From NCBI GenBank assembly GCA_015068325.1, contig SVKQ01000021.1:99696-163695 (forward strand): a DNA stretch of 64,000 nt, read 5' to 3'. The translations under genes and the position numbers were made by a program. Within the stretch, counting starts at the first letter, position 1. Each line of letters begins with the position of its first letter. This DNA is from Oscillospiraceae bacterium. GTDB taxonomy: Bacteria; Bacillota; Clostridia; Oscillospirales; Oscillospiraceae. Under the pieces are notes generated by a model. It was not told the origin of the DNA, did no database searches, and saw only the letters and a program-made list of their open reading frames with translations. Of the stretch, positions 45,466 through 63,567 are shown in pieces.

Positions 45466-45477
45466 TGCTCCGCCTCC

Positions 45478-48630: not shown

Positions 48631-49576
48631 AGACACACATCCTCTCCATCACCGCCAGCAGCAGCATCAGCCACGCCGTGCCGTACAGCAGCCGGTGGCT
48701 GCGGCGGATATCCTCTGGTTCGATGGGCCGGAAGTCGTCGCCAATATACTGCTTTTTGTGGATCTGCCCGAAATACCGGGCATCGCCCGCCAGGCGCACC
48801 CGCAGCGCGCCCGCCATCACCGCCTCCGTCTGGGCGGAGTTGGGACTGTCGTGTTTGCGACGGTCCCGCTGCCAGATGCGCAGCGCATTGGCTGCGTCCG
48901 CCCCCGTGAGCTTCGCCGCCGCGATCATCAGCAGAGCCGACAGCCGGGACGGGAGATAGTTCATCACATCGTCCAACCGGGCGGCACAGGTACCGAAGCG
49001 CATATACCGCTCGTTGCGGTAGCCCACCATGGAGTCCATGGTGTTCACTGCCTTGTAGAGACAGCCCAGCGCCGGGCCGCCCAGCATCATGTAAAAGAGC
49101 GGCGCCACCTCCCCGTCGGAGGTGTTCTCCGCCACGGTCTCCACTGCGGCCCGTGCTACGCCAGCCTCGTCCAGCACGTCGGTGTCCCGGCCCACGATCA
49201 TGCCCACCGCCCGCCGGGCATCCTCCAGCGTGCCGTCCGTCAGCGCCGTATAGACTCGCAGGCTCTCCAGCCGCAGGCTCCGGGCCGCCAGGCACTGCCA
49301 GTCCAGCAGTGACGCCAGGGCCAGATAGCACCAGGGACTCAAGGTCCACGCCAGCGCCAGCAGCGCCAGCGGGACACCTGTCCCAATCACCAGCACGCCG
49401 ACCACCAGCAGTCCCCCGGCTAAACGCTTGTTGGCCATGGGATAGAGCTGCTTCTCCAGCACCTCGATCAATTTTCCGTACCAGCGCACGATGTGGGGCC
49501 AGCCCTGGGGATCGCCCAGCAGCAGATCCAGCAAAAAGCCCAGCAGCAGCGCCGCCGTGTCATAGAGCAACATCAT
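48617..49576 (-). CDS. cbiB: Adenosylcobinamide-phosphate synthase CbiB
   Basis: This 319-residue membrane protein joins aminopropanol (or its phosphate) to cobyric acid. Diagnostic blocks are GFLLDLLLGDPQGWPHIVRW, VETVAENTSDGEVAPLFY and YKAVNTMDSMVGYRNERY. Four to five hydrophobic segments are present. It overlaps cbiA by 17 bases and cobD by 14, so translation of the three is closely coupled. Confidence 0.95.
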   Translation of the reverse strand: MMLLYDTAALLLGFLLDLLLGDPQGWPHIVRWYGKLIEVLEKQLYPMANKRLAGGLLVVGVLVIGTGVPLALLALAWTLSPWCYLALASLLDWQCLAARSLRLESLRVYTALTDGTLEDARRAVGMIVGRDTDVLDEAGVARAAVETVAENTSDGEVAPLFYMMLGGPALGCLYKAVNTMDSMVGYRNERYMRFGTCAARLDDVMNYLPSRLSALLMIAAAKLTGADAANALRIWQRDRRKHDSPNSAQTEAVMAGALRVRLAGDARYFGQIHKKQYIGDDFRPIEPEDIRRSHRLLYGTAWLMLLLAVMERMCVYAAL

Positions 49577-50885
49577 CCGCCGCCTTTCTTACAAACCGCT
49601 CCGCAAAGGCCGGGCTGGACGGCCAGTAGAGGTGCGGAAATCCCGCCCACAGCGTATCCGAGGCGTGGACGCAGTCCCACCCCCGGCGGCCGGAGGGCTT
49701 TTCCGCCCGGCAATCCACCCCGTTGTCCGTGCTGGTACAGTAGTGGAACTCATGGGCCCGAACACTCTCCCCCGCCCGACACAACAGGTTATCCCGCTTC
49801 GCCGTTAAATTTACATAACCAAAAGTCTGCAGTTTTTTCGTGGTCTGTGCTGCCGCATGGAGCACGCCCGCCATCTCCGCGCCGTCCAGCGTGTCGTGGA
49901 GATAGAGGAATCCACCGCACTCAGCCACGGTGGGGAGTCCCGCCCACACTGCCTGCCGAATGGCGCGGCGGATGGGGCTGCGCCGCAACGCCTCCAGATG
50001 CAGCTCCGGATAGCCGCCGGGCAGATACAGGCCGCCGATGTGCTCCGGCAGCTTTTCATCCCGCAGCGGGCTGAAAAAGGTCAGTTCGCAGCCCAGCTCC
50101 CGCAGCAGTTGCAGGTTCTCCTCATAGAGGAAGCAGAAGGCCTCGTCCCGGGCCACGGCGATGCGCACATGCTTCACGACCGGCGCCGCAGGCTCCGTCC
50201 GGGGCAGGGACGAAGCCTCCGCTGCCAGTGCCAGAATGCCGTCGATGTCCAGGTACTTCTCCGCCAGGGCACCCAGCTCCGCCAGCCGCTGCCGGATATC
50301 ATCGATCTCTCCGGCGGTAATGAGCCCCAGATGGCGGCTGCCGATGGCGGCCGCCTCACTCCCCGGAAGAATGCCCAGTGGCGTCAGCCCCGCGTCCCGG
50401 GCGATCTGCCGCAGGTCACCCTGCAGCATGGGCGGGGCGTTGTTAAAGATCACGCCCCGTATGCCGCTGTCAGGCCGGAAATCCCGAAAGCCCCGCAGCA
50501 CGGCCCCCGCCGAGGTGTACATTCCTCGGACATTGACCACCAGGATGACCGGCGTCTCCGTGGCCCGGGCCACGCTCCAGGTGCTGCAGCGCCCCTCAGA
50601 GCCGATGCCGTCGTAATAGCCCATGACGCCCTCTGCCACACAGAGCTTCCCCGCCGCCGCGCCCATCTGGCGCCGCAGCTGTTCCGGCGTGCTGAAAAAG
50701 GGGTCCAGGTTTCGGGCCGGCACGCCGATGACCTCACGGTGGAACATGGGGTCGATATAGTCCGGCCCACACTTGAAGGATTGCAGCGCCAGACCGCGGT
50801 CCTTCAGCGCCTGCAGCAGTGCACAGGTCACGGTGGTCTTGCCGCAGCCGGAGTGGGTACCGGCGATCAGGATCCGGTCATTCAT
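49560..50885 (-). CDS. cbiA: Cobyrinate a,c-diamide synthase CbiA
   Basis: This 441-residue glutamine amidotransferase amidates the a and c side chains. The N-terminal P-loop region is IAGTHSGCGKTTVTCALLQAL. FKCGPDYIDPMFH is a strong CbiA signature. The C-terminal glutaminase-like domain has the nucleophile Cys in LPTVAECGGFLYLHD. It overlaps cbiET by eight bases and cbiB by 17. Confidence 0.95.
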   Translation of the reverse strand: MNDRILIAGTHSGCGKTTVTCALLQALKDRGLALQSFKCGPDYIDPMFHREVIGVPARNLDPFFSTPEQLRRQMGAAAGKLCVAEGVMGYYDGIGSEGRCSTWSVARATETPVILVVNVRGMYTSAGAVLRGFRDFRPDSGIRGVIFNNAPPMLQGDLRQIARDAGLTPLGILPGSEAAAIGSRHLGLITAGEIDDIRQRLAELGALAEKYLDIDGILALAAEASSLPRTEPAAPVVKHVRIAVARDEAFCFLYEENLQLLRELGCELTFFSPLRDEKLPEHIGGLYLPGGYPELHLEALRRSPIRRAIRQAVWAGLPTVAECGGFLYLHDTLDGAEMAGVLHAAAQTTKKLQTFGYVNLTAKRDNLLCRAGESVRAHEFHYCTSTDNGVDCRAEKPSGRRGWDCVHASDTLWAGFPHLYWPSSPAFAERFVRKAADDVAL

Positions 50886-52068
50886 CTCTGCCGCCTCCGC
50901 TGATGATAAAGATGGGGTTCCGGGCTGTCAGCATGTGGAGGCCCGCCACCGCTCTTCCCTCCGACACGCCCACCTGCACCAGCTCTGCCGGCAGGTTGTG
51001 GGCGGCAAAAGCGTCCAGCGCCGCCTGGGCACTCTCCAGGGCGATGGCGTTGACCGCGATGCGGGCGCGCGGGTTTTTCTCCAGCACCGTGTTGAACACG
51101 ACTCCCATCTGCTTCCCACTGCCGCCCACGAATACCGTGTCCGGCGCCGGCAGAGCACGCAGTACCTCCGCCGCGTCGCCCCGGCACACCGTCACGTTGC
51201 CCAAGTGAAAGGCATCGCGGTTGTGCTCCGTCAGAGACGCCGCCTCCTCATCCTTGTCGATGGCATATACGTGACCGCGCCAGGCCGCCAGCGCCAGCTC
51301 CACCGTCACCGAGCCGGTGCCGCAGCCCACGTCCCAGCACACGTCCTCCGGCCTCACGGCCAGCTTGCTCATGGTCACCGCCCGCACTTCCGCCTTGGTC
51401 ATGGGCACATCGCCCCGGATAAATGCCCCGTCCGGGATACCGGAGCGCACCCGACTGTCGGCAGCCGGATTGTCGATCAGCAGCACCGCCAGCGAGCCGA
51501 TTTCCGCACCGGACAGCTTCTCCGCCGTCATGGCGGTGATCCGCTCCCCCGGGCGCCCCAGCTCCTCTCCCACGGTGACGGCCAGGCCACCGAAGCCGGC
51601 ACGGCACAGGTCTGCCGCCAACTCCCGCGTATTGCCGCCGGTGAGGGCAAAGGTGACAGCATGGCGCCGCACCGTATCCACCAGGTGGCCGCTCCGTCCG
51701 TGGCAGCTGACAAGGGCCGCGCCCTGCCAAGGTCTGCCCAGCCGGGCGGCCAGGCAGTTCAGTGACGAGATTCCCGGCAGGACGCGCACCTCACACCCCG
51801 TCAGTTCCCGGCACAGTCGATCGGCGGCACTGTAAAAGCCGACGTCGCCGGACACCAGCACCGCAAAGGCCCCCTGCTGATATTCCGCCAGCACGGGCGC
51901 CATCTTCTCCGCCGTATAGGCGTTTTCACTTCTCTTGTTCAAATGGGCATAGTCCGTCAGCAGACGGGGAGCACCGAAGAGCACGTCGGCCTCTTCAATG
52001 GCCCGCAGACCCTCCGCTGTGACAGTGTCCGGCCCCATACCGGCACCCACAATAGTCACGAACTTCAT
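50878..52068 (-). CDS. cbiET: Fused cobalt-precorrin C5/C15-methyltransferase (CbiE-CbiT)
   Basis: This 396-residue protein fuses CbiE and CbiT, as in CobL. The N-terminal CbiE part (about 1-200) is a tetrapyrrole methylase (VTIVGAGMGPDTVTAEGL, VLVSGDVGFYSAADRL, LPGISSLNCLAARLG). The C-terminal CbiT part (about 205-396) has the SAM motif DVGCGTGSVTVELA after the MTKAEVRAVTMSKL block. It methylates C5 and C15 and removes the C12 acetate. ATG 52068 overlaps the cbiJ stop by four bases. Confidence 0.94.
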   Translation of the reverse strand: MKFVTIVGAGMGPDTVTAEGLRAIEEADVLFGAPRLLTDYAHLNKRSENAYTAEKMAPVLAEYQQGAFAVLVSGDVGFYSAADRLCRELTGCEVRVLPGISSLNCLAARLGRPWQGAALVSCHGRSGHLVDTVRRHAVTFALTGGNTRELAADLCRAGFGGLAVTVGEELGRPGERITAMTAEKLSGAEIGSLAVLLIDNPAADSRVRSGIPDGAFIRGDVPMTKAEVRAVTMSKLAVRPEDVCWDVGCGTGSVTVELALAAWRGHVYAIDKDEEAASLTEHNRDAFHLGNVTVCRGDAAEVLRALPAPDTVFVGGSGKQMGVVFNTVLEKNPRARIAVNAIALESAQAALDAFAAHNLPAELVQVGVSEGRAVAGLHMLTARNPIFIISGGGRDE

Positions 52069-52817
52069 ATTGTCCCTCTCTCGATCCGCTCCAGCCACTC
52101 CGCCGCGGGCAACCCGTCGGCGTCCGCCGGACGCTCCAGCACGGCCGTTGTCATGCCGCAGGCCCTTGCGGCTGACAGTTTTTCGCCAAAACCACCGGCT
52201 CCGCCCGACTCCTTGGTGATGAGGATATCCGCACCCGCGGCGCGGAACATGGCCTCGTTCAGTTCCCGGGAAAAAGGTCCCTGCATGCAGATGATGTGCC
52301 GGGCGGGAAATCCCGCCTCCAGACACGCCTCCAGCCCCTCCCGGGACGGCAGGATCCGCAGCCAAACCCGCTCTTCAAACCCCGGCACCGCAGTCAGCGC
52401 CCGGGCCTCTTTAGAGCCCAGCGAGGAAAAGATGACCCCCTCCTGCGTCTGCAGCCACGCCACCATTGCCGCCAGATCCGGAAATATCCGGCAGCCATCC
52501 TCCGGTTGGGAGTTCCTTTTTACCCGCCGGTACGGGCAATCCGTGGCAGCGCAGGCCGCCCGGATGCTCCGGCTCACGCCGTCGGCATAGGGGTGGGTGG
52601 CGTCCAGCACCAGCCGGGGGCGCTCCTGTGCCATCAGCGCCGCCATGGCGGCCTCATCCAGCCGCTCCCGGTGTATCCGCAGCGTGCCGCCCGGCTCCAG
52701 CAGCGACTCGCCGTACGCCGTGGCCACACAGACCAGCGTCTGGATCTCCTTCTCTTTCAGCTTCTCCGCCAGTTCCCGACCCTCGGTGGTGCCGCCGAAC
52801 AACAAAACGTCAATCAA
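52065..52817 (-). CDS. cbiJ: Cobalt-precorrin-6A reductase CbiJ
   Basis: This 250-residue reductase starts with the Rossmann motif DVLLFGGTTEGRELA. It contains VLDATHPYADGVSRSI and DILITKESGGAGGFGEKL, the CbiJ/CobK signatures. It uses NAD(P)H to reduce the corrin ring. The start codon is TTG at 52817. No ATG upstream is possible without cutting the Rossmann motif, and AGGGGG lies upstream. It overlaps cbiH by eight bases. Confidence 0.92.
   Translation of the reverse strand: MIDVLLFGGTTEGRELAEKLKEKEIQTLVCVATAYGESLLEPGGTLRIHRERLDEAAMAALMAQERPRLVLDATHPYADGVSRSIRAACAATDCPYRRVKRNSQPEDGCRIFPDLAAMVAWLQTQEGVIFSSLGSKEARALTAVPGFEERVWLRILPSREGLEACLEAGFPARHIICMQGPFSRELNEAMFRAAGADILITKESGGAGGFGEKLSAARACGMTTAVLERPADADGLPAAEWLERIERGTI
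52810..52817 (-). promoter_or_regulatory. TTG-initiated coupling junction cbiH/cbiJ
   Basis: The TTG start of cbiJ lies eight bases inside the 3' end of cbiH, with AGGGGG as its ribosome binding site. This is the only non-ATG start within the cobalamin operon. Confidence 0.6.
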
Positions 52818-53541
52818 GGCGATACCCCCTCGGCGTCACCATTTTCCCGCTGATCACCCGGGTCATGGAGTTGCCGATGTACACCGTGGTGAACATGTCC
52901 ACCGGCGTGTCCCGCAGCCGTCCCAGCGTGGTCACCTGCCAGTTTTCCCCCGCCCGGCCGATCTCCCGGGCCATGCCGCACACGGTTTCCGGCGGCAGCG
53001 TCTCCAGCAGGATATCGCAGGCCCGCTGCAGGTAGTCGGTACGCCTGTGGCTGCCGGGATTGTAAAGGCTCATGCACAGGTCCCCCGCCGCCGCGCAGCG
53101 CAGCCGCTTCTCAATGGTTTCCCACGGCGTCAGCAGATCACTGAGGCTGATGACGGCGAAATCATGTCCCAGGGGCGCCCCCAGAATGGCGCCGCCGCTG
53201 AGGGCCGCCGTCACACCGGGGATCACCTGCAGTTCTACGCCCGGAGCCTCCCCGGCCAGCTCATAGATGAGTCCCGCCATGCCGTAGACCACGCTGTCAC
53301 CACTGCACACCAGGGCCACCGTCTCGCCCTCCCGGGCCAGGCGCAGCGCCTCGGCACAGCGTTCCCGCTCCCGGGTCATGCCGGTGTCGTGAAACCTCTT
53401 GTCGGGATAGTATGGCCGCACCAGCTCCACATACTTGCTGTAGCCCACGATCACGTCAGCCCGGCGCAGCGCCTCATCCGCCTCCATGGTCATGCCGGAG
53501 CGCTTGCCGGGGCCGATGCCTACGATGTACAGTCTGTTCAT
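52810..53541 (-). CDS. cbiH: Cobalt-precorrin-3B C17-methyltransferase CbiH
   Basis: This 243-residue methylase starts LYIVGIGPGKRSGMTMEA. It has VALVCSGDSVVYGMAGLI, VIPGVTAALSGGAILGAPLGHDFAVISLSD (partly quoted) and CMSLYNPGSHRR, which together are specific to CbiH/CobJ. It methylates C17 and triggers ring contraction. ATG 53541 has GGGGGG upstream and overlaps the cbiG stop by four bases. Confidence 0.94.
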   Translation of the reverse strand: MNRLYIVGIGPGKRSGMTMEADEALRRADVIVGYSKYVELVRPYYPDKRFHDTGMTRERERCAEALRLAREGETVALVCSGDSVVYGMAGLIYELAGEAPGVELQVIPGVTAALSGGAILGAPLGHDFAVISLSDLLTPWETIEKRLRCAAAGDLCMSLYNPGSHRRTDYLQRACDILLETLPPETVCGMAREIGRAGENWQVTTLGRLRDTPVDMFTTVYIGNSMTRVISGKMVTPRGYRLD

Positions 53542-54530
53542 TTGCGTTCCCCCCATGTCAGTTTCGCCTCCCGGATAGCCAGCGCCACGGTGACGCCGTT
53601 GCCGGCCTCTTTTCTCGTCAGCAACCGCCCGCCGCTGTGCCTAACGGCCGCCCGCTCACACACGTTGTCCACGCCGGTGGTCTTTTTCACAAAAGCCGAG
53701 CCGGTAAAGCTGCCCGGCATCGCCGACAGCTCCTCCGCGGTGTAGGTGACCAGCGGCAAGCTGCGGCTCCGGCAGAAGGCCAGCAGTCCCGGCTCCTCCG
53801 CCTTCAGCCCGATGGTGGCCACGGCTCCCACCGCCAGCGGATGGCAGCCCGCCTTGCCCAGTGCTGCTGCAAAGGCTGCCTCAATGGTCTCCGCCGCTGC
53901 ACCCCGCCTGCAGCCGATGCCCGCGGTGACGATCCGCGGCACCAGCCGCAGCGCCTCCACCCGGCCGCGGCTCCGGTGGCTGACGAGCATATCGTAGCCC
54001 TCCTCATCCGGCTCCAGCTGCGCCGGCAGGGCGCCGTCAATGGGATACAGGCTCTTGAAGCGGATCGTCTCTCCAGCCAGCAGCCGGGCGGAGATCCACT
54101 TGATCCGCTGGGGATTGGCCACAGCCAATCCCTGGGTGCGGGCCCAGTCGTCCACGGCGAAAAGGCCGTGCACGTCAGTGGCGGTGGTGATGACGGGGAT
54201 GGCACCCACCTGCCGCGCCAGCGCCGCGGCCAACGCATTAGCGCCGCCCAGATGGCCCGACAGAATGGGGATGGCAAAGGTGCCCAGCTCATCCAGTACC
54301 ACCACGGCCGGATCGCAGGTCTTTGTCTCTACATGGGGCGCAACAGCCCGCACGGCGATGCCCGCTGCGCCGATGAACACCAGCGCATCGCTGTCCGAAA
54401 AGGCCCGGGCCGTCCAGGCCGCCAGGCCGCCCTTTTCACACCGCTCCAGCGTCATGTTCTCCGCCTGCTCCTGCAGCCGCCGGCCCAGGGCCATGCCGCA
54501 GTCGGTGAAGGCGATAGCGGCAATCCTCAT
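53538..54530 (-). CDS. cbiG: Cobalt-precorrin-5A hydrolase CbiG
   Basis: This 330-residue protein opens the delta-lactone of cobalt-precorrin-5A. The N-terminal part contains DALVFIGAAGIAVRAVAPHV. The central part has LSGHLGGANALAAALARQ and PVITTATDVHGLFAVDDWA. The C-terminal CobE-like domain includes VTAGIGCRRGAAAETIEAA. It is flanked by four-base overlaps with cbiF and cbiH. Confidence 0.94.
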   Translation of the reverse strand: MRIAAIAFTDCGMALGRRLQEQAENMTLERCEKGGLAAWTARAFSDSDALVFIGAAGIAVRAVAPHVETKTCDPAVVVLDELGTFAIPILSGHLGGANALAAALARQVGAIPVITTATDVHGLFAVDDWARTQGLAVANPQRIKWISARLLAGETIRFKSLYPIDGALPAQLEPDEEGYDMLVSHRSRGRVEALRLVPRIVTAGIGCRRGAAAETIEAAFAAALGKAGCHPLAVGAVATIGLKAEEPGLLAFCRSRSLPLVTYTAEELSAMPGSFTGSAFVKKTTGVDNVCERAAVRHSGGRLLTRKEAGNGVTVALAIREAKLTWGERK

Positions 54531-55282
54531 CGTGTCGCCTCCCGAAACTCTGTGGAAAAATCCGCGGCGTAGAGCCGGGACAGGTCGTAGCTGTTGCCCA
54601 GACAGTGGCCCACCACGATGAGGGCCGTCTTACGCACCCCGTTTCGCTCCGCCGTTTCGCGGAGCGTGGCCACCGTGCAGCGCAGCACCTTCTCGTCCGG
54701 CCAGGTGGCCTTGTAGACGATGGCCGCCGGCGTATCAGCGCCATAGCCGCCGGCCTGCAGCTCCGCTTCCAGCTCCTGCAGCAGCCCCGTGCTGAGGAAG
54801 ATCACCATGGTGGCACCGTGGGCGGCGAAGGAGCGGATGCTCTCCCGCTCCGGAACCGGCGTCCGTCCCGCCATACGGGTGATGACCACCGACTGGGAGA
54901 TGCCCGGCAGCGTATACTCCGCCTCCAGTGCAGCCGCAGCGCCGCAGAAGCTGGACACGCCGGGACACACATCATAGGCGATGCCCAACCTCCGCAGCAC
55001 ATCCATCTGCTCCCGGATGGCACCATACAGGCAGGGATCACCGGTATGCAGCCGCACCGTCAGCTTGTTCTCCTTTTCCGCCCGCTCCATCACCGCGATG
55101 ATCTCCTCCAGCGTCATTTTTGCGCTGTTGAAGATCTCGCAGCCCGGCTTCGCGTCTGCCAGCAGGGCAGGATTGACCAGAGAGCCGGCGTAGATGATCA
55201 CATCCGCCTGCTCCAGATAGCTCTTTCCCCGGACCGTGATGAGATCCGGCGCGCCGCTGCCGGCGCCCACAAAATGTACCAT
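54527..55282 (-). CDS. cbiF: Cobalt-precorrin-4 C11-methyltransferase CbiF
   Basis: This 251-residue methylase starts VHFVGAGSGAPDLITVRGKS. It has LHTGDPCLYGAIREQMDVL and CPGVSSFCGAAAALEAEYTL, the CbiF/CobM signatures. It methylates C11. It lies three bases after cbiD and overlaps cbiG by four. Confidence 0.95.
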   Translation of the reverse strand: MVHFVGAGSGAPDLITVRGKSYLEQADVIIYAGSLVNPALLADAKPGCEIFNSAKMTLEEIIAVMERAEKENKLTVRLHTGDPCLYGAIREQMDVLRRLGIAYDVCPGVSSFCGAAAALEAEYTLPGISQSVVITRMAGRTPVPERESIRSFAAHGATMVIFLSTGLLQELEAELQAGGYGADTPAAIVYKATWPDEKVLRCTVATLRETAERNGVRKTALIVVGHCLGNSYDLSRLYAADFSTEFREATR

Positions 55283-55285
55283 GCG

Positions 55286-56419
55286 TCATTCCCTCCAGTG
55301 TTCCATCATTCGTTCCGCGTTTCCGCTCCGGCTCAGCACGCCGCCCAGATCCTGCCGGTTGGTGAACAGCACGTAGCCGATCTCCACGCCCTCCGGCACC
55401 CGCCGGCGCAACGTGGCCTCGATCCGCCGGCCCAGCAGGGCGCAGACGGGTTCTTTCAACTCCTCCCGCTGCAGCAGCTCCAGCGCCGCGTCGGTGGTGG
55501 CGCAGTCCAGGATCTCCCGGATCAGCGGCGCCTGCGCGCCGCACAGCGCCGCGCAGGCGGCCAGCGTCTCCATCCGGCCGTCACCGGCGGAGGAGTGGGT
55601 ATTGGTCTGGCCGATGCCCAGCTTCACCAGCTTGCCGATGTGGCCGATCAGCAGGATCTCCCGGAAGCCATGCTCCACGGCGGCATCGATGGCGTCGCCG
55701 ATGAAGTTGGAGCAGCTGACGCACGCATCCGGCCGCAGGCGCAGCCGCTCTGCGGCGAAATCCCGGCCGTAGTTTCCCGGCACCAGCAACACGCGGTCGC
55801 TGCCGCGGGCGGCCAGCTGCCGCAGCTCCAGCGCCACGGTGTCCACCAGCGCCCGGTTGCTCATAGGCTCCACGATGCCGGACGTGCCCAGCACCGAGAT
55901 GCCCCCCTCGATGCCCATGCGGGGGTTGAAGGTCCGCGCAGCCAGTTCCCGCCCGCCGGGGATAGAGATGGTAATGGCGATCCCGCCGCCGTAGCCCTGT
56001 TCGCGGCATACCTGCGCCACGTGATCGGCAATCATCCGCCGGGGCGTGGAGTTGATGGCCGCTGCCCCCACCGGCTGATCCAGGCCCGGCTTCGTCACCC
56101 GGCCCACGCCCTCGCCGCCGTCTACGGTGATACCGGACGCCGTCCGCTCCGCCCGGGCAAATACCAGCACGCCGTTGGTCACGTCCGGATCGTCGCCGGA
56201 GTCTTTCCGCACGGCGCAGGAGGCAAAATCTCTCCCCGGCTCCGGCTCCAGGATGTCCAGCATCAGACGCACGCCGGCCGGCGTCTCCAGCGTCACACTG
56301 TCCACCGCCGCGCCCGTCAGCAGCATGCGGGCAGCCGCAGACGCCGCGGCCGCCGCACAGGACCCGGTGGTGTAGCCGCAGCGCAGCAGCTTTCCGTTGA
56401 TATTTTTCGTCAGATCCAT
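55286..56419 (-). CDS. cbiD: Cobalt-precorrin-5B C1-methyltransferase CbiD
   Basis: This 377-residue protein has the CbiD signature LRCGYTTGSCAAAAASAAA near the N-terminus, with INSTPRRMIADHV, GTSGIVEPMSNRALVDT and LIGHIGKLVKLGIGQTNTHS further on. It methylates C1 in the anaerobic pathway. It is first in the operon. ATG 56419 follows directly on the U-run of a terminator hairpin, so its ribosome binding site would lie within the hairpin's right arm. That fits strict control by the leader. Confidence 0.94.
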   Translation of the reverse strand: MDLTKNINGKLLRCGYTTGSCAAAAASAAARMLLTGAAVDSVTLETPAGVRLMLDILEPEPGRDFASCAVRKDSGDDPDVTNGVLVFARAERTASGITVDGGEGVGRVTKPGLDQPVGAAAINSTPRRMIADHVAQVCREQGYGGGIAITISIPGGRELAARTFNPRMGIEGGISVLGTSGIVEPMSNRALVDTVALELRQLAARGSDRVLLVPGNYGRDFAAERLRLRPDACVSCSNFIGDAIDAAVEHGFREILLIGHIGKLVKLGIGQTNTHSSAGDGRMETLAACAALCGAQAPLIREILDCATTDAALELLQREELKEPVCALLGRRIEATLRRRVPEGVEIGYVLFTNRQDLGGVLSRSGNAERMMEHWRE

Positions 56420-56504: not shown

Positions 56505-56580
56505 AATCCATACACATGGTAACCCGGCTGTCACGGTAACGCACTTGCGAGGGAATTGCACCCTTCTTACCCATTGGATT
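56505..56580 (-). ncRNA. Candidate compact cobalamin-type riboswitch of the cbi operon
   Basis: The leader shows AGGGTGCAATTCCCT (like the GGTG..AAxTCC arm), GCGTTACCGTGA (like CCGCxACtGTgA) and CAGCCGGGTTACC (like AGYCxGxxTACC). These are in the order of a cobalamin aptamer but without the long peripheral arms. The ends pair (AATCCA..TGGATT and ATGG.TAA..TTACCAT). It is followed by terminator hairpins and cbiD. Confidence 0.62.
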
Positions 56581-56588
56581 GTGGCACT

Positions 56589-56618
56589 ATGATACCATCG
56601 TGCCGCAGCGCTTGTCAA
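56589..56618 (-). promoter_or_regulatory. Promoter of the cbi operon
   Basis: On the minus strand TTGACA (56618-56613) and TATCAT (56594-56589) are 18 bases apart, about 10 bases upstream of the riboswitch. Confidence 0.75.
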
Positions 56619-56629
56619 GTGATATGGGG

Positions 56630-56658
56630 TTGACACCCGTGAACGGCGGTGATATAAT
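56630..56658 (+). promoter_or_regulatory. Promoter of the cbiK-lipoprotein unit
   Basis: A perfect TTGACA (56630-56635) and a perfect TATAAT (56653-56658) are 17 bases apart. The two divergent -35 boxes are only 11 bases apart. Confidence 0.85.
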
Positions 56659-56671
56659 GGCCCCGCAACCG

Positions 56672-56832
56672 AATAAGGCACGGGAACAGGTACTGGAAGT
56701 CGGGTGAAAGTCCCGCACAAGGCCGTTGCTGTGATTCGCGTCAGAGTGCAGACAGAGTGCCACTGGGAAACCGGGAAGGCGTCTGTGCCGCGGAGTGCCC
56801 CTCCGCCGCGATCAGTCAGAATACTTGCCTGC
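56672..56832 (+). ncRNA. Cobalamin riboswitch (aptamer) upstream of cbiK
   Basis: Conserved cobalamin riboswitch elements appear in order: GGGAACAGG, GGGTGAAAGTCCCGC, GTTGCTGTGA, GCCACTGGGAAACCGGGAAGG and AGTCAGAATACTTGCCTG (longest piece shortened). The last is the conserved 3' box. It lies between a perfect promoter and a strong terminator. Confidence 0.92.
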
Positions 56833-56940
56833 TCCTCCACCCCAGTGGTGCGTTCAGCTCTGCGGATCTCCGGAGTCGTGAATGCGGTCGTCACCCACAG
56901 CCGCTGCGCGGCTGTTCCTTGGCGCGCCGCCGTTCTCTCT

Positions 56941-56974
56941 CCGTCTGCGGACTGTCCGCAGACGGTTTTCTTTT
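56941..56974 (+). terminator. Riboswitch expression-platform terminator
   Basis: CCGTCTGCGGA / TCCGCAGACGG is a perfect 11-bp stem with a three-base loop, followed by TTTTCTTTT. It lies 65 bases before cbiK, so cobalamin should switch transcription off. Confidence 0.88.
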
Positions 56975-57039
56975 GGTGTCCCGGGCGTATACCCCCACAC
57001 AGATATCACACATCACCGGCAAGAGAAAGGAAGAAAAAG

Positions 57040-58299
57040 ATGAAAACGATGAGATCCCTTTTGGCACTGCTCCTGGTCTGCGTCATGGCGCTGGCCCTGG
57101 TCGCCTGCGGCGGCAACAGCAGCCAGAACAACAACGAGTCCCAAAACAACGACCAGCAGCAGAACCAGCAGGAAGAGCAAAACGAGCAGAACACCGAGAA
57201 CAACGAAACCCAGGCTCCCACCGATCAGGAACTGGCCGACGAGGTGGCCGCGCTGATCGACGCCATCTACGTGCAGGAGCACACCGATAAGACCGACGAG
57301 CAGATTGCTGCCGCCCGGGCGGCCTGGGACGCCCTGACCGACGCGCAGAAGGAACTGGTGGAGGGCGAGGAGGCTGATCCCGACTACTTCGGCCGCGACA
57401 CCGGCGACGCCTCCAAGGACGACGCCCGCAACGCCGATGAGATCGGCGAGAACGAGCTGTTGGTGGTCAGCTTCGGCACCTCCTTCAACGACAGCCGTGC
57501 GCTGGACATCAAGGGCGTCGAGGATGCGCTGGACCAGGCCTATCCCGATTGGGCTGTCCGCCGCGCCTTCACCGCGCAGATCATCATCAACCACATCCAG
57601 GCCCGTGACGGCGAGAAGATCGACAACATGGACCAGGCCCTGGCCCGTGCTGTGGCAAGCGGCGTGAAGAACCTGGTCATCCAGCCCACCCATTTGATGC
57701 ATGGCGCCGAGTACGACGAGCTGGCTGAGGCCGTGGAGGCCTACAAGGACAAGTTCGAGTCCGTGGTCATCGCCGAGCCTCTGCTGGGCGAGGTGGGCGC
57801 TGACGCCACCGTCATCAACGCTGACAAGGAGACTGTCGCCAAGGCCGTCACCGCCGAGGCCGTGAAGGATGGCGGCTATGAGAGCCTGGAGAAGGCCGAG
57901 GAGGCCGGCGTTGCCTTTGTGTTCATGGGCCACGGCACCTCCCATACCGCCAAGGTGTCCTACTCTCAGATGCAGGCCCAGATGGAGGCTCTGGGATATA
58001 AGAATGTGTTCATCGGCACCGTGGAGGGCGAGCCCGAGGATACCGCCTGCGAGGCCATCATCAACAAGGTGGCCGACGCCGGCTACAAGACCGTGGTGCT
58101 GCGCCCCCTGATGGTGGTGGCCGGCGACCACGCCAACAACGACATGGCCGGCGAGGACGAGGACTCCTGGGTCAGCATGTTCAACGCCAGCGGCAAGTTC
58201 GACGAGGTGAAGACCCAGATCGCCGGTCTCGGCCGCATCGCCGACGTGCAGGCCCTGTACGTGGCCCACGCCAAGGCCGCCATCGATTCCATCGCCTGA
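57040..58299 (+). CDS. Exported lipoprotein with CbiK-type (sirohydrochlorin cobaltochelatase) domain
   Basis: This 419-residue protein has a lipoprotein signal peptide (lipobox LVAC, Cys23). An Asn/Gln/Glu-rich spacer follows at about 26-58. A short three-helix surface-protein repeat (about 64-108, containing AAWDALTDAQKELV) comes next. From residue 138 there is a full CbiK domain: LLVVSFGTSFNDSRALDIKG, FTAQIIINHIQ, QPTHLMHGAEYDEL (His218) and FMGHGTSHTAKVSYSQM (His298), including the two His of the metal site. CbiK normally inserts cobalt into sirohydrochlorin in the cytoplasm. This copy should sit outside the membrane. It is riboswitch-controlled and two bases ahead of a surface lipoprotein gene. 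Confidence 0.9.
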   Translation: MKTMRSLLALLLVCVMALALVACGGNSSQNNNESQNNDQQQNQQEEQNEQNTENNETQAPTDQELADEVAALIDAIYVQEHTDKTDEQIAAARAAWDALTDAQKELVEGEEADPDYFGRDTGDASKDDARNADEIGENELLVVSFGTSFNDSRALDIKGVEDALDQAYPDWAVRRAFTAQIIINHIQARDGEKIDNMDQALARAVASGVKNLVIQPTHLMHGAEYDELAEAVEAYKDKFESVVIAEPLLGEVGADATVINADKETVAKAVTAEAVKDGGYESLEKAEEAGVAFVFMGHGTSHTAKVSYSQMQAQMEALGYKNVFIGTVEGEPEDTACEAIINKVADAGYKTVVLRPLMVVAGDHANNDMAGEDEDSWVSMFNASGKFDEVKTQIAGLGRIADVQALYVAHAKAAIDSIA

Positions 58300-58301
58300 G
58301 C

Positions 58302-58796
58302 ATGAAAAGAGCTTCATTTGTCAAGCGGGCAGCCGCTCTCCTGTGCCTGCTGGCCGTTTGCTGCTCGCTCTGTATCGGCTGCGGCAGCAAACAGGGACAG
58401 GACGAGCCTGCTCCCCTGCCGGACGGCGTCTACACCGTGGACTTCAAAACCGACGGTTCCATGTTCCATGTGAATGAGGTCTGCGAGGGCAAGGCTTCCC
58501 TGACGGTGGAAAACGGCCGGATGACAGTTCACATCACCATGCCCTCCAAAAACATCGTCAATCTCTTCCCCGGTACGGCGGAGGACGCCCAGAAGGAGGG
58601 CGCCGTCCTCATCGAGCCCACACTGGACACCGTCACCTATCCCGACGGTCTGACTGAAGAGGTTAACGGCTTTGACCTGCCCGTTCCCTGGCTGGACCAG
58701 GAGTTCCCCTGTGCCATCGTGGGCACCAAGGGCAAGTGGTATGACCACCAGGTGTCGGTATCCGACCCGGTGCCGCTGGAGAGCAGCGACAGCTGA
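58302..58796 (+). CDS. Surface lipoprotein with NEAT-like domain
   Basis: This 164-residue protein has a hydrophobic signal peptide ending in an imperfect lipobox at Cys27. A single beta-rich domain of about 115 residues follows (from DGVYTVDFKTDGSMFHV to KGKWYDHQVSVSD). The pattern DGxYTV..., LTVENGRMTVHITM, and a final KWYDHQV recalls NEAT-like domains that bind haem-type ligands and that I know next to FecB/BtuF-type transporters in Clostridia. It starts two bases after the CbiK-type gene and shares its mRNA. The ligand is unknown and the family assignment is by eye. Confidence 0.68.
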   Translation: MKRASFVKRAAALLCLLAVCCSLCIGCGSKQGQDEPAPLPDGVYTVDFKTDGSMFHVNEVCEGKASLTVENGRMTVHITMPSKNIVNLFPGTAEDAQKEGAVLIEPTLDTVTYPDGLTEEVNGFDLPVPWLDQEFPCAIVGTKGKWYDHQVSVSDPVPLESSDS

Positions 58797-58871
58797 TCCG
58801 CCGCGCTTTCCCGGCGCGTACGGCGTTTTTCAAAGCGAGTTTGTCTTTTCCATAAGACATTCCATAGACAA

Positions 58872-58912
58872 GCCGGGCGGCGGACGATTTGGGCGATCGT
58901 CTGCCGCCCGGC
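58872..58912 (+). terminator. Long terminator between the two NEAT-like genes
   Basis: A 17-bp stem (GCCGGGCGGCGGACGAT / ATCGTCTGCCGCCCGGC, one wobble) is followed by GCCTCCTTTTA. It ends the riboswitch-controlled transcription unit. Confidence 0.8.
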
Positions 58913-58938
58913 GCCTCCTTTTACGGAGAAGTCAGCCC

Positions 58939-58967
58939 TTGCGAACACATTTCTCCCCTGTTATAAT
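58939..58967 (+). promoter_or_regulatory. Promoter of the NEAT-like/BtuFCD unit
   Basis: TTGCGA (58939-58944) and a perfect TATAAT (58962-58967) are 17 bases apart. The leader would be under 20 bases, leaving no room for a riboswitch. Confidence 0.65.
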
Positions 58968-58991
58968 CCTTTATGAAAAGGAGCGATGACC

Positions 58992-59942
58992 ATGAGACGC
59001 ATCAAACGGACCCTCTGCATGCTGCTGGCGGCGACCGTGCTGCTGGCGGCCGCGGCACTGTCCGCCCCCACCGCCTGGGCGGCGGAATATGAGGACGGCG
59101 ATTATACGGTCTCTTTCCGTATGGACGGCCTGGGCCGCCATAACGTGGCCTGGAACACCGCTACCGTACATGTGGAGGGCGGCAAACTGTACGTAGACTT
59201 TACGCTGGAACGGGTGGATCCCCGGGATCATGCGCCGCAATATGATTGGCTGCGCACTGCCTGCGGCACTTACTACCCCTCGCTCAACGACGCTGCCTAC
59301 ACCTGCACCTTCTCCCGTGTCCAGGTGCCGAATCTGGGCAGTGTCAATGTCTCCGCCCAAACCTCTGCCATGTCGCAGCCCTATGAGGTGGACTATACCC
59401 TGCACATTGATGACTCCACGATCCCCGTCAAGTCCGAACCGAAGCCCGACGCTCCTGCGGAGCCCGAAGAGCCCACACAGCCGGAAGAGCCCACACAGCC
59501 GGAGCAACCCGCGCAGCCGGAGCAGCCCACGCAGCCGGAGCAACCCGCGCAGCCGGAGCAGCCCGCGCAGCCGGAGCAGCCCGCGCAGCCGGAGCAGCCC
59601 GCGCAGCCGGAGCAGCCGACACAACCGACGGCTCCTGCACAGCCGGCGGAGAACACCGCCGAGTGGGCGGACAACACTGCGCCGGAGGATCCCCTGGCTC
59701 CTGAGGTACCCGCTGTGCCGACGGATGAGCCCGCGCCGGCAGATGATCCCGAGTCGGAGGACAACACTGCCGACCCGGAGGGCGGCGCCCCGGTTGAGAA
59801 TACCGAAAACAGAGACATCATCTCTCCGGCTCCGGAGAGGCGGGGCCTCAGCGGCGGCGTGATCGCCGCTATCGCGGCGGGTGCCGTCGTCGCAGCGGCC
59901 GTCGTCATCTGGCTGATGATCAGGTCCCGGAAAATGAAGTAA
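58992..59942 (+). CDS. Membrane-anchored surface protein with NEAT-like domain and Pro-rich stalk
   Basis: This 316-residue protein has a signal peptide (cleavage probably after AWA, about residue 30). A beta-rich domain (about 33-140) begins YEDGDYTVSFRMDG and contains TVHVEGGKLYVDFTLE. A Pro/Gln/Glu stalk made of QPEQPA-type repeats (about 155-215) and an acidic region follow. A C-terminal membrane helix is followed by RSRKMK. There is no LPxTG motif. The layout is that of a cell-wall-spanning receptor. I chose ATG 58992, eight bases after AAAAGGAG; an ATG six bases earlier is too close to that site. It precedes the BtuF-type gene by 15 bases. Confidence 0.75.
   Translation: MRRIKRTLCMLLAATVLLAAAALSAPTAWAAEYEDGDYTVSFRMDGLGRHNVAWNTATVHVEGGKLYVDFTLERVDPRDHAPQYDWLRTACGTYYPSLNDAAYTCTFSRVQVPNLGSVNVSAQTSAMSQPYEVDYTLHIDDSTIPVKSEPKPDAPAEPEEPTQPEEPTQPEQPAQPEQPTQPEQPAQPEQPAQPEQPAQPEQPAQPEQPTQPTAPAQPAENTAEWADNTAPEDPLAPEVPAVPTDEPAPADDPESEDNTADPEGGAPVENTENRDIISPAPERRGLSGGVIAAIAAGAVVAAAVVIWLMIRSRKMK
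59478..59621 (+). repeat. Eight tandem 18-bp repeats encoding a Pro-rich stalk
   Basis: Eight in-frame copies of an 18-base unit (CAGCCGGAGCAGCCCGCG and variants) encode QPEQPA, QPEQPT or QPEEPT. Such repeats can change copy number by slippage, which would alter stalk length without a frameshift. Confidence 0.92.
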
Positions 59943-59957
59943 CAAATGGAGAAGATC

Positions 59958-61112
59958 ATGAAGCTGAGATCTCTGCTCCGGCGGACGGCCGCGGTACTGC
60001 TGATCCTCTGTCTGCTGCTGCCGGCCACCGGCTGTGGCGGACGATCCGCCCCTGATGGGGACGCCCCCGTGGTAGGCGACCTGACCTATGAGAGCACCGT
60101 TCCCCTCTCCTATGCCGACCAGTTCGCCATCTACCGGTACGAGGGCGGCTACTCCCTCATCGACATGGTCAACAGCGACCGGATGCTGGTGGTGCCGGAG
60201 GGTGCCACCGTGCCGGAGGGGCTGGACGGGGACATCGTGGTGGTGCAGCAGCCGCTGGACCACATCTATCTGGCTGCCACCTCCGCCATGGCCCTGTTCG
60301 AGTCCATCGACGCGCTGGACGCCATCTCCTTTGTGGGCAGCAACCACTGGTACACCGACAGCGCCGCCCAGGCGCTGGCCGACGGCACCTTTGTCTACGC
60401 CGGCAAATATAACGCCCCCGACTACGAGCTGCTGCTGGGCGGCGGCTGCCAGTTGGCCATCGAGTCCACCATGATCCTCCATAACCCGGAGGTCAAGGAG
60501 AAGATGGTGGAGCTGGGCATCAAGACCGTGGTGGAGCGCTCCAGCTACGAAAACCACCCCCTGGGGCGCACCGAGTGGGTAAAGGTCTACGGTGCGCTGC
60601 TGGGCCGGGAGGCCGAGGCTGAAGCCGCCTTCACGGCGGAAGCGGACAAGATCGCCGCGCTGGAGGGGCTGGATCCCACTGGCAAAACGGCGGCTTTCTT
60701 CTACATCAGCAGCGGCGGCAACGCCGTCACCTACAAGACCAACGGCTATGTACCCGCCATGATCCGCATCGCCGGCGGCGAGTACATCTTCGCCGACCTG
60801 GGGCTGGAGGACGACAGCAAACTCAGCACCGTGAACATGAGCATGGAGCAGTTCTATGACGCGGCCCGGGAGGCCGATGTGCTCATCTACAACTGCTCCA
60901 TCGCCTCCCAGCTTTACACACTGGAGGACTTGCTGGATCTGAGCCCCGTGCTGGAGGATTTCAAAGCCGTGCAGAGCGGCGACGTGTGGTGCACCACCGA
61001 GAGCATGTTCCAGCAGACCGACAAAATGGGCACCATCATCCAGGAGATGAACGCCATCTTCTCCGGCGCGGCCGGGGGGGATGCGCTGCAGTATCTCTTC
61101 AAATTGCAGTAA
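59958..61112 (+). CDS. Substrate-binding lipoprotein, BtuF/FecB type
   Basis: This 384-residue protein is a Peripla_BP_2 family lipoprotein. The signal peptide ends in PATGC. YSLIDMVNSDRMLVVP and the later IYLAATSAMALFESIDAL, FVGSNHWYTDSAAQ and MIRIAGGEYIF match cobalamin/siderophore receptors. I chose ATG 59958 because GGAG lies six bases upstream; the ATG at 59946 has no good site. It lies 15 bases before the permease gene. A corrinoid ligand is inferred from the neighbouring cobalamin genes; a haem or siderophore is the alternative. Confidence 0.86.
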   Translation: MKLRSLLRRTAAVLLILCLLLPATGCGGRSAPDGDAPVVGDLTYESTVPLSYADQFAIYRYEGGYSLIDMVNSDRMLVVPEGATVPEGLDGDIVVVQQPLDHIYLAATSAMALFESIDALDAISFVGSNHWYTDSAAQALADGTFVYAGKYNAPDYELLLGGGCQLAIESTMILHNPEVKEKMVELGIKTVVERSSYENHPLGRTEWVKVYGALLGREAEAEAAFTAEADKIAALEGLDPTGKTAAFFYISSGGNAVTYKTNGYVPAMIRIAGGEYIFADLGLEDDSKLSTVNMSMEQFYDAAREADVLIYNCSIASQLYTLEDLLDLSPVLEDFKAVQSGDVWCTTESMFQQTDKMGTIIQEMNAIFSGAAGGDALQYLFKLQ

Positions 61113-61127
61113 GCGAGGAGCGTTTTT

Positions 61128-62168
61128 ATGAACCAGGCAGTGCCCGACTCCGCCGCGGCGCGGCGCGCCAGATATGCCGCCGTGTTCATCGGCCTGCTGG
61201 CCGCCTTCGCGGCGCTGACGGTGTGGAACATCAACTCCGGCAGCGTCCACATCTCCGTGGCGGATATCGCGCGGATCATCTTTCTGCATCAGGGCGACGA
61301 CACTCAGATGGGCATCATCTGGAAGCTGCGCCTGCCCCGTATCGTTGCCTCGGCGGTGCTGGGCGGCGGACTGGCCCTGTCCGGTTTTCTGATGCAGACC
61401 TTCTTTGGCAACCCCATCGCCGGTCCCTTCGTGCTGGGCATCTCGTCCGGGTCCAAGCTGTTCGTGGCGCTGACCATGATCGTGGCGCTGCGGTACATAT
61501 CCTTCGTCAGTTCCTGGATGATGGTGGCTGCCGCCTTTGTGGGCGCGCTGATCGCCATGGGCTTCGTGCTGCTGGCAGCCCGCTCCATCCGGCAGATGTC
61601 CATGCTGCTGGTGGCCGGTATCATGATCAGCTACATCTGCTCGGCCGTGACCGAATTTCTTATCACCTTTGCCAAGGACTCCGACATCGTCAACCTGCAC
61701 ACCTGGTCCCAAGGCAGCTTTTCCGGCACCAAGTGGGCCGACGTGCGGTTCTTCACCCTCACCATCCTGATCTGCTTCCTGGTGGTGTTTCTCCTGTCCA
61801 AGCCCATCGGCGCTTACCAGATGGGCGAGGCCTATGCCCAGAGCATGGGCGTCAACGTCAAGCGGTTCCGTGTGGTGCTGATCCTCATGTCCAGCCTTAT
61901 CGCCGGCTGCGTCACAGCTTTTGCCGGTCCCATCTCCTTTGTGGGCATCGCGGTGCCGCACCTGATCAAGATGCTGCTCAAGACCGCCCGCCCCATTCTG
62001 GTGATCCCGGCCTCTTTCCTGGGCGGCGGCGTGTTCTGTATGTTCTGTGACTACATCGCCCGCACGGCCTTTGCCCCGGTGGAGCTCAGCATCAGCACCG
62101 TCACAGCGCTGTTCGGCGCACCGGTGGTCATCGCCATGCTGATCCGCCGCCACGGCGGCAGGATGTGA
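61128..62168 (+). CDS. ABC transporter permease, BtuC/FecCD type
   Basis: This 346-residue permease has about ten hydrophobic segments. The FecCD signature blocks are LRLPRIVASAVLGGGLALSG, FVLGISSGSKLFVAL and FAGPISFVGIAVPHLIKMLL. It forms the membrane channel for the BtuF-type receptor. GAGGAG precedes the start. The overall length is typical. Confidence 0.94.
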   Translation: MNQAVPDSAAARRARYAAVFIGLLAAFAALTVWNINSGSVHISVADIARIIFLHQGDDTQMGIIWKLRLPRIVASAVLGGGLALSGFLMQTFFGNPIAGPFVLGISSGSKLFVALTMIVALRYISFVSSWMMVAAAFVGALIAMGFVLLAARSIRQMSMLLVAGIMISYICSAVTEFLITFAKDSDIVNLHTWSQGSFSGTKWADVRFFTLTILICFLVVFLLSKPIGAYQMGEAYAQSMGVNVKRFRVVLILMSSLIAGCVTAFAGPISFVGIAVPHLIKMLLKTARPILVIPASFLGGGVFCMFCDYIARTAFAPVELSISTVTALFGAPVVIAMLIRRHGGRM

Positions 62169-62180
62169 GGGGGTGTGGAT

Positions 62181-63281
62181 ATGAGCGAGTACTATTTCCG
62201 CACATCGGAGCTGTCCGTGGGTTACAACGGCAGACCGCTGATTCACGACATTGAGATCTGCGTCAGAGCCGGTGAGATCCTGACCCTGATCGGCCCCAAC
62301 GGCTCCGGCAAGTCCACCATACTCAAGAGCATCACCAAACACCTGGCCGCCATCCGGGGCGACAGCTTCATTGCCGACGCCTCCGTAGGCGCCATGAGCT
62401 ATAAGGAGCTGTCCCGCAGGCTGGCGGTGGTACTGACGGAGCGCATCAAGGGTGAGCTGTTGACCTGCTGGGACGTGGTGGCCACCGGTCGCTACCCCTA
62501 CACCAACAGTCTGGGCCTGCTGTCGGGGAAGGACCGGGACAAGGTCCGCGCCGCCATGGAGCGGGTCCACGCCGCTGACTTGGCGGAGCGCGACTTCACC
62601 GCCATCAGCGACGGGCAACGCCAGCGGATCCTGCTGGCCCGGGCCATCTGCCAGGAACCGGAGATCATTGTGCTGGACGAGCCCACCTCCTTCTTGGATA
62701 TCCGTCACAAGCTGGAGCTGCTGACCATTCTGCGCACCATGGCCAAGGAAAAGGGCATCACCGTCATCATGTCGCTCCACGAGATCGACCTTGCCCAGAA
62801 GATCTCCGACAAGATCATGTGCGTCCACGGCGACGTGATCGAACATTTCGGTACTCCGGACGAGATCTTCCGTCCAGAGATCATCAACGACCTCTACGGC
62901 ATCACCGAGGGCACCTACAACATCACCTTCGGCAGTGTGGAGCTGCCCCGCCCGGCTGGTGAGCCGAAGACCTTTGTCATCTCCGGCTGCGGCAGCGGCG
63001 TGGTGCTGTTCCGCCGGCTGCAGAAGGAGAACACGCCCTTTTATGCCGGCATTCTCTACCGCAACGACGTGGACTGGCAGGTGGCGCAAAATCTGGCGGC
63101 GGAGGTGGTGGCTGAGGATCCCTTCATGCCCATCAGCGACGGCACCTATCAGCGGGCGCTGGCGCTCATGAGACAGTGTGAGACCGTGCTCTGCGCCGGC
63201 GTCCCCATCGGGGAGACCAACCGGCGTATCGCGGACTTGATAGAAGCAGCGAGGTCCATGGGCCTCCTGCAAGAGGAATAG
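62181..63281 (+). CDS. ABC transporter ATP-binding protein, BtuD/FepC type, with C-terminal extension
   Basis: This is a 366-residue ATPase. The ATPase domain (1-255) has Walker A GPNGSGKST (38-46), signature ISDGQRQRI (142-150), Walker B IIVLDEPTS and H-loop MSLHE. The canonical domain of about 255 residues is followed by an extra domain of about 100 residues (TFVISGCGSGVVLFRRL, AGILYRNDVDW, ETVLCAGVPIGETNRR). That domain has a glycine-rich loop and alternating strands and helices, and I cannot assign it. ATG 62181 has GAGGGGG upstream. Confidence 0.88.
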   Translation: MSEYYFRTSELSVGYNGRPLIHDIEICVRAGEILTLIGPNGSGKSTILKSITKHLAAIRGDSFIADASVGAMSYKELSRRLAVVLTERIKGELLTCWDVVATGRYPYTNSLGLLSGKDRDKVRAAMERVHAADLAERDFTAISDGQRQRILLARAICQEPEIIVLDEPTSFLDIRHKLELLTILRTMAKEKGITVIMSLHEIDLAQKISDKIMCVHGDVIEHFGTPDEIFRPEIINDLYGITEGTYNITFGSVELPRPAGEPKTFVISGCGSGVVLFRRLQKENTPFYAGILYRNDVDWQVAQNLAAEVVAEDPFMPISDGTYQRALALMRQCETVLCAGVPIGETNRRIADLIEAARSMGLLQEE

Positions 63282-63332
63282 TACGGACCGCCCGGAGCAG
63301 GGAGCGGGATACAAGCGTCCTGCCATACACCA

Positions 63333-63503
63333 CGTCTCCCGGTGCCGCCTGCGGGCGGGCAAAAGGGAAGCAGGTGAAAATCCTGCGCGATCCGGTCACT
63401 GTGAGCGGGGAGCGGCGCAGCCACACGCCATTGCGTCCGGCATGGACGTGAGAAGGCGCTGCCGCCGCTGTGATCCGCCAGCCAGGAAACCTGCCGGGAG
63501 ACG
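63333..63503 (+). ncRNA. Second cobalamin riboswitch, upstream of a secreted protein gene
   Basis: The closing stem CGTCTCCCGG (63333-63342) / CCGGGAGACG (63494-63503) is perfect. Inside are GGGAAGCAGGTGAAAATCCT, GTCACTGTGAGC and the 3' box AGCCAGGAAACCTGCC. No U-run follows. A GGGGCtgCCG / CGGCCCC hairpin lies directly before the ribosome binding site, which suggests translational control. Confidence 0.93.
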
Positions 63504-63567
63504 CACCCGGGCACAGCGTGCCTACTGCGATTTGGGGCTGCCGAGGACGGCCCCGGAAGGAGGAAAC

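Follow-up and report, generated by a model that had tools for sequence, protein, structure and literature searches.

What would a CbiK-type chelatase do outside the cell membrane? The question is raised by a 64,000-nucleotide stretch of DNA from an Oscillospiraceae bacterium (GenBank assembly GCA_015068325.1, contig SVKQ01000021.1, positions 99,696 to 163,695 of the forward strand), referred to here as the window and used for coordinates unless another source is named. A gene on its forward strand (57040..58299) encodes a CbiK-family protein with an export signal, and is followed by genes for two surface proteins and a BtuFCD-type importer. This locus was described in an earlier reading of the sequence (the original prediction), and the observation as a whole was confirmed by gene calls, Pfam, and a riboswitch model. 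The favored explanation, considered rather probable, is that sirohydrochlorin or a close relative is scavenged, receives its cobalt at the cell surface, and is then imported for completion of the cobamide inside.

A CbiK relative with an export signal

The chelatase reading frame encodes 419 amino acids. Its N-terminus, MKTMRSLLALLLVCVMALALVAC, includes the lipobox LVAC with Cys23, which is followed by an Asn/Gln/Glu-rich spacer, a conserved linker, and a CbiK domain at residues 140-415 (Pfam PF06180, E=1.1e-69, 235.2 bits versus a gathering score of 26.2). The signal, the spacer, and a complete domain with both active-site histidines were found as originally predicted. A three-helix repeat had also been proposed between the spacer and the domain; the corresponding stretch, ELADEVAALIDAIYVQ...ALTDAQKELVEGEEADPDYFGRDTGDASKDD, is conserved and common to close relatives, yet it occurs in only five of the 14 aligned exported proteins. 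The cut-off of the NCBIfam equivalog NF047852 was not reached (188.2 bits versus 400), and by this measure the protein is a relative rather than the equivalog drawn by NCBI.

In an alignment with Salmonella CbiK, His298, His364, and Glu224 of the chelatase correspond to His145, His207, and Glu89, the last of which we take to be a catalytic residue. All 14 aligned exported proteins, including that of the window, keep these three residues, and both His motifs were found in each of the 24 exported relatives inspected. His145 and His207 are active-site residues in the Salmonella enzyme (PMC7689651). The lipoprotein signal, together with S-layer (SLH) anchors on the exported CbiK of two relatives, makes it likely that the chelatase is not cytoplasmic, and the surface-type neighboring genes agree with the surface setting first proposed for it.

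The chelatase has three sequence relatives in the PDB: the sirohydrochlorin cobaltochelatase CbiK of Salmonella (1qgo), FetB of Porphyromonas gingivalis (9b86, E=3.7e-33), and a chelatase of Desulfovibrio vulgaris (2xvx), presumably the periplasmic CbiK-P. Salmonella CbiK belongs to the same sequence family and shares the three conserved residues, but the window chelatase differs from it in having an export signal, in standing outside the cbi operon, and in lying beside carrier-like and importer genes. FetB, presumably the protein also called IhtB and itself exported, is likewise a CbiK homologue, and its chain starts with a lipoprotein-like stretch; unlike the window chelatase, it is filed as haem-binding. 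CbiK-P is a CbiK homologue as well, though we know of no NEAT-BtuFCD setting for it. A quick tree built from 67 CbiK domains placed 25 of the 26 exported rows in a single clade (Shimodaira-Hasegawa-like approximate likelihood ratio test, SH-aLRT, 100); in the best tree, FetB and the Desulfovibrio protein fell outside it. However, a grouping of every exported form, FetB included, in one clade was not rejected (approximately unbiased test, p-AU 0.251; L069/G084 was included in the tree and left out of this test), and an independent origin of export relative to FetB and CbiK-P is therefore not claimed. The exported row outside the clade was a divergent long branch from genome G084. This very divergent CbiK-like protein (L069, 6956-8515) has a signal-like start, and CbiD was not found in its genome.

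Corrin-ring genes without precursor enzymes

The cbi operon lies on the reverse strand of the window, with cbiD as its first gene (55286..56419, start inferred at 56419), followed by cbiF, cbiG, cbiH, cbiJ, cbiET, cbiA, cbiB, a cobC/cobD-like aminotransferase, cbiP, cbiC, and cbiL (44779..55282). It comprises complete ring genes from CbiL onward, and its predicted products cover the ring steps from cobalt-sirohydrochlorin on (in part after PMC8123684). No cbiK was found in the operon (44779-56419), in line with the original prediction. The genome (G000) is a draft of 1.96 Mb in 21 contigs, 95% complete, in which a profile search found the chelatase as the sole CbiK. CbiX had no match over the cut-off in this genome, and its two weak matches fall in the same gene. 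The earlier suggestion that the exported protein might be the only chelatase was accordingly supported.

Enzymes that would supply sirohydrochlorin were also missing. None of HemB, HemC, HemD, CobA, and SirC was found over the profile cut-offs in this genome, and HemB, HemC, HemL, and a HemA-SirC fusion frame gave no tblastn match at E<=1e-3 across all 1,958,189 bases. Besides CbiF and CbiH, a CobA-HemD query matched one further site, weakly, on contig C14 (27% over 137 residues). The tblastn queries were taken from one relative, G022, and every query matched a control region of G072. The absence of precursor enzymes in a draft of this completeness is strong, although not absolute. By gene content, the genome would qualify as that of a tetrapyrrole precursor salvager. 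Given the same content, sirohydrochlorin is the earliest tetrapyrrole that known enzymes would let the cell use, and the lack of HemA, HemL, HemB, HemC, HemD, CobA, and SirC therefore points to sirohydrochlorin rather than to any tetrapyrrole. The original prediction had spoken of scavenged tetrapyrroles in general; scavenging is retained, and its object is narrowed by the missing enzymes, a pattern that recurs across the family.

Missing precursor enzymes and the exported chelatase across the family

The idea of missing precursor enzymes was set down before the later searches, with the window's genome as its source, and was followed in a sample of 150 genomes of the same family (Oscillospiraceae), that genome included. 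CbiK matches were found in 57 and CbiD in 53 of the 150. The 53 genomes with CbiD comprised 16 with exported CbiK only, seven with both exported and cytosolic forms, 23 with cytosolic CbiK only, and seven with none or an unclassified form. HemB, HemC, HemD, CobA, and SirC were all missing from 12 of the 16 exported-only genomes, one of the seven with both forms, none of the 23 cytosolic-only genomes, and two of the seven in the remaining group. Among the 23 cytosolic-only genomes, HemB was found in 21, HemC in 21, HemD in 22, CobA in 22, and SirC in all 23.

The difference between exported-only and cytosolic-only genomes (12/16 versus 0/23) was significant by Fisher's test (p=4.7e-7). It was also seen among genomes of at least 90% completeness (7/8 versus 0/15, p=3.3e-5) and in a hand count by genus (10/14 versus 0/20, p=7.6e-6), so that the tests allow for descent to the level of genus and not beyond. 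One genus, g64, has one genome of each kind (G064 and G143). Assembly gaps were considered as a cause of the missing hem genes and ruled out by this group pattern.

These classes follow a heuristic of our own, in which a protein was called exported when a signal-like start lay at least 30 residues ahead of the CbiK domain and cytosolic when the start was nearer; some nearer starts marked as exported by the script were counted as cytosolic. Three classes (G113, G128, and G138) were amended after inspection by eye, and G081, G098, and G100 were left unclassified. The search for CbiX covered the window's genome.

Surface proteins, importer, and conservation of the locus

Downstream of the chelatase and on the same strand, the gene for protein A (58302..58796) encodes a lipoprotein whose structure model had NEAT-domain haem proteins as its best Foldseek and VIA-align matches. 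Its sequence scored 14.9 bits against Pfam NEAT (PF05031), under the cut-off of 32.8, while its homologue in locus L103 clears that cut-off with 34.5 bits. As modeled, protein A adopts the NEAT fold. Protein B (58992..59942) is a secreted NEAT-like protein with a signal peptide judged by eye, a Pro/Glu/Gln stalk encoded by a repeat of 18-bp period (59461-59627), and a C-terminal hydrophobic segment as anchor. Some relatives of protein A have two domains, and protein B resembles the second of these (hhalign 98.1%). The two surface proteins of the original prediction thus correspond to A and B.

The importer that had been predicted was likewise recovered, its three genes all scoring above Pfam cut-offs: a BtuF/FecB-type substrate-binding lipoprotein (59946..61112, PF01497), a BtuC/FecCD-type permease (61128..62168, PF01032), and a BtuD-type ATPase (62175..63281, PF00005), all on the forward strand. 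The permease had NF003001 (BtuC) as its best NCBIfam match, at 202.4 bits and below the cut-off of 334, and the ATPase matched NF007082, a "corrinoid ABC transporter ATPase", over residues 10-357, also below cut-off. At its C-terminus the ATPase is extended by about 120 residues (62907-63281), which the NF007082 model covers. The BtuF-type protein had no match among PDB sequences at E<=0.001.

A search with an alignment of 14 exported proteins matched at least 597 stretches, of which 595 among those listed were relatives, and the counts that follow rest on the best 80 loci among the matches listed. These include Faecalibacterium, Gemmiger, Blautia, Roseburia, Dorea, and Eubacterium ramulus. 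Within 9 kb of the chelatase, BtuF was found in 64 of the 80 loci, BtuC in 63, a protein A-like gene in 60, BtuD in 53, CbiP in 24, and CbiD in 15. Where at least 4.5 kb of downstream sequence was available (69 loci), BtuF was found in 58, BtuC in 55, and a NEAT-like gene in 53, and all three occurred on the same strand within 4.5 kb in 42. A signal-like start was present in 80/80 and a lipobox in 73/80, under a heuristic more lenient than the rule of the family sample. CbiD was present in 49 of the 50 genomes tested that were reached through these loci, a set that overlaps the family sample by at least two genomes (G163 is G064, and G176 is G031).

The surroundings of the unit varied. In Faecalibacterium and Gemmiger it continues into cbiD and further ring genes (L099, L107, L173). 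In the Lachnospiraceae locus L103, it is followed by cbiP, cobT, cobU, and cobS, so the unit does not always adjoin ring genes. A cobalamin riboswitch lay upstream of the exported CbiK on the same strand in 14 of the 20 loci searched. Among the other six, the CbiK gene lies inside an operon in L016 and behind other genes in L006, and no riboswitch was seen in the short stretches examined for L023, L035, and L038. L022 carried a NiCo riboswitch (3674-3745, reverse strand), which lies about 1.2 kb ahead of the exported CbiK gene of G080; the stretch searched there showed no cobalamin riboswitch. Domain arrangements varied as well: in G129 (L037, 38-3007, reverse strand), one surface polypeptide has the order CbiK-CbiK-NEAT, with the NEAT domain C-terminal. 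Two sets of CbiK motifs within a single frame were also seen in G065, G083, and G085.

Regulatory elements

The chelatase unit and the cbi operon diverge from back-to-back promoter matches. On the forward strand, a promoter-like site, TTGACA-17-TATAAT (56630..56658, 12/12, with TG before the -10), precedes a cobalamin riboswitch aptamer (RF00174, 56671..56846, 50.2 bits versus a gathering score of 31.5). Between the riboswitch and the chelatase gene, a terminator-like hairpin with a T-run (56941..56965) is a probable expression platform. The range given in the original prediction begins at 56630, which is the promoter match; the riboswitch itself starts at 56671. On the reverse strand, a promoter-like site for the cbi operon (56589..56618, 11/12) and a terminator-like hairpin upstream of cbiD (56449-56428, motif scan) enclose an AdoCbl-II riboswitch-like element (56510..56587) that scored below the gathering score (27.8 versus 36.5 bits). 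Promoter matches in the scanned region numbered four versus 0.7 expected, and terminator matches seven versus 2.9 expected.

The predicted riboswitch was found ahead of the chelatase, but its control may not extend to all six genes. A strong intrinsic-terminator-like hairpin after protein A (58872..58912, forward strand, 18 pairs, -44.6 kcal/mol, z -6.7) and a promoter-like site upstream of protein B (TTGCGA-17-TATAAT, 58939..58967, forward strand, motif scan) divide the locus into the chelatase with protein A and protein B with the importer. Because of this split, one riboswitch may not control the whole unit, and control of the importer by B12 is not certain. A second, stronger cobalamin riboswitch (63323..63512, forward strand, 101.4 bits) precedes a gene for a secreted protein that is cut by the contig end (63323-64000), and the fragment matched no Pfam family over the cut-off.

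Proposed role and alternative explanations

Because the sole sirohydrochlorin-using enzyme found has an export signal, surface cobalt loading followed by import is the simplest reading of the locus. The NEAT-like proteins would capture the tetrapyrrole and pass it on, the exported CbiK would insert cobalt into scavenged sirohydrochlorin or a close relative outside the membrane. Cobalt-sirohydrochlorin would then enter through the BtuFCD-type importer, and the corrin ring would be completed in the cytoplasm by the products of the cbi operon. An equally good fit is a variant that starts from captured sirohaem and replaces its iron. Where a genome retains the precursor genes, the module would act as a supplement.

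Several points weigh against surface loading of scavenged sirohydrochlorin. Its supply in the gut is an assumption. The window's genome, from which the idea came, is itself one of the 12 exported-only genomes that lack all five enzymes, two genomes (G057 and G139) were called exported by frame length only, and HemA and HemL were searched in the window's genome alone. All five precursor enzymes are kept in two genomes with exported CbiK only (G033 and G085) and in three with exported and cytosolic CbiK (G011, G029, and G046), four of the five are kept in another genome with both forms (G048), and HemD, CobA, and SirC are kept in two exported-only genomes (G050 and G115), so the module is not only a replacement for these genes. 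Conversely, G103 and G144 have CbiD and lack all five enzymes, and no CbiK was found in either. A genus-mate, G036, and locus L156 had no BtuFCD in the stretch beside the chelatase. Finally, cobalt need not stay outside, as an importer of the energy-coupling factor (ECF) Ni/Co type is encoded near a lar-type cluster elsewhere in the genome, and a lack of cytosolic cobalt uptake, once considered as support, was dropped on finding this importer with CbiQ near LarC. The cluster (G000:C11:96071-101951; L234, L235) encodes a LarC-like nickel insertion protein (PF01969), an AIRC-domain protein, a LarE-like protein, and the importer, made up of CbiQ, an ATPase, and a CbiM-like protein; the LarE-like and CbiM-like proteins were named by eye, the former without a Pfam match. 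These genes probably serve a nickel-pincer cofactor and include a metal importer of their own.

The cobalamin riboswitch and the BtuFCD neighbors would also suit a module for corrinoid capture, in which the CbiK-like protein would do no more than bind cobamides or cobinamide on the cell surface and hand them to the importer. The continuation of at least one Lachnospiraceae locus (L103) into nucleotide-loop genes and the presence of CbiP near 24 of the best 80 loci are in keeping with such a role. It is nevertheless unlikely, as it leaves unexplained the invariant catalytic residues, the retention of CbiD in nearly every genome tested, and the link to missing precursor enzymes. Acquisition of haem or porphyrin, with a surface enzyme that strips haem iron or swaps porphyrin metals as in P. 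gingivalis, has in its favor the PDB match to haem-binding FetB, the haem proteins among the NEAT-fold matches, and Mn-protoporphyrin at the cell surface that depends on FetB, as cited in a 2026 review (PMC13402209). However, the enzyme tracks the corrin-ring gene CbiD and the locus carries a B12 riboswitch, both of which lower haem acquisition as a main role, and the best tree separates FetB from the exported clade, although a shared clade was not rejected. This role is accordingly judged distinctly unlikely; of the functions in the original prediction, metallation of a scavenged tetrapyrrole remains the best fit and a haem dechelatase becomes less likely.

The cell might instead salvage uroporphyrinogen III, or make the precursor with unrecognized enzymes, and the exported CbiK would then be an accessory. 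Predicted uroporphyrinogen III salvagers occur in the gut (PMC6461909), and divergent genes can escape family models. With CobA and SirC also absent, however, imported uroporphyrinogen III could not reach sirohydrochlorin via those enzymes, and the joint absence of five conserved families in 12 genomes is hard to ascribe to divergence, which leaves this alternative only a slim chance.

Relation to known systems and significance

Exported CbiK homologues and tetrapyrrole precursor salvagers are each already known. Precursor salvagers were defined by Shelton et al. (PMC6461909), who verified dependence on 5-aminolevulinic acid (ALA) in three species. Like the genome studied here, they have a full set of corrin genes and lack the tetrapyrrole genes upstream of it, and they are mostly Firmicutes; in contrast, the phenotype verified for them was ALA dependence, and the passages cited describe no exported chelatase module. 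P. gingivalis is without the steps to precorrin-2 (PMC6461909, citing Roper et al. 2000). The NEAT haem relays Isd, Hbp2, and IsdX1 differ from the window module, which has cobalamin riboswitch control, a CbiK partner, and a NEAT sequence below the Pfam cut-off. HmuS, the subject of PMC13227078, is an unrelated class I chelatase. No literature that connects an exported CbiK with NEAT proteins and corrin synthesis was found in a search that left most subscription journals and bioRxiv outside its scope, and within the same scope no paper matched "NEAT domain", "cobalamin", and "riboswitch" combined.

The locus offers concrete candidate machinery for the route by which precursor salvagers would obtain a late precursor. 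Isolates with the exported enzyme are found in Faecalibacterium, Gemmiger, Pseudoflavonifractor, Blautia, and E. ramulus. Predictions of B12 synthesis may also be affected: in the table of a gut reconstruction, the producer pathway begins at CbiK/CbiX (PMC6593275), and a genome like this one could therefore be scored as a producer despite a CbiK with an export signal and missing precursor genes. More broadly, and with the case for and against evenly balanced, a large group of gut Clostridia may have shifted the cobalt-insertion step of vitamin B12 synthesis to the outside of the cell. There, CbiK and NEAT proteins at the surface would metallate sirohydrochlorin that neighbors release, an importer would take up the cobalt-sirohydrochlorin, and cobamide synthesis would be shared between species at this intermediate. 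A major cofactor pathway would then, if this holds, include an enzymatic step at the cell surface.

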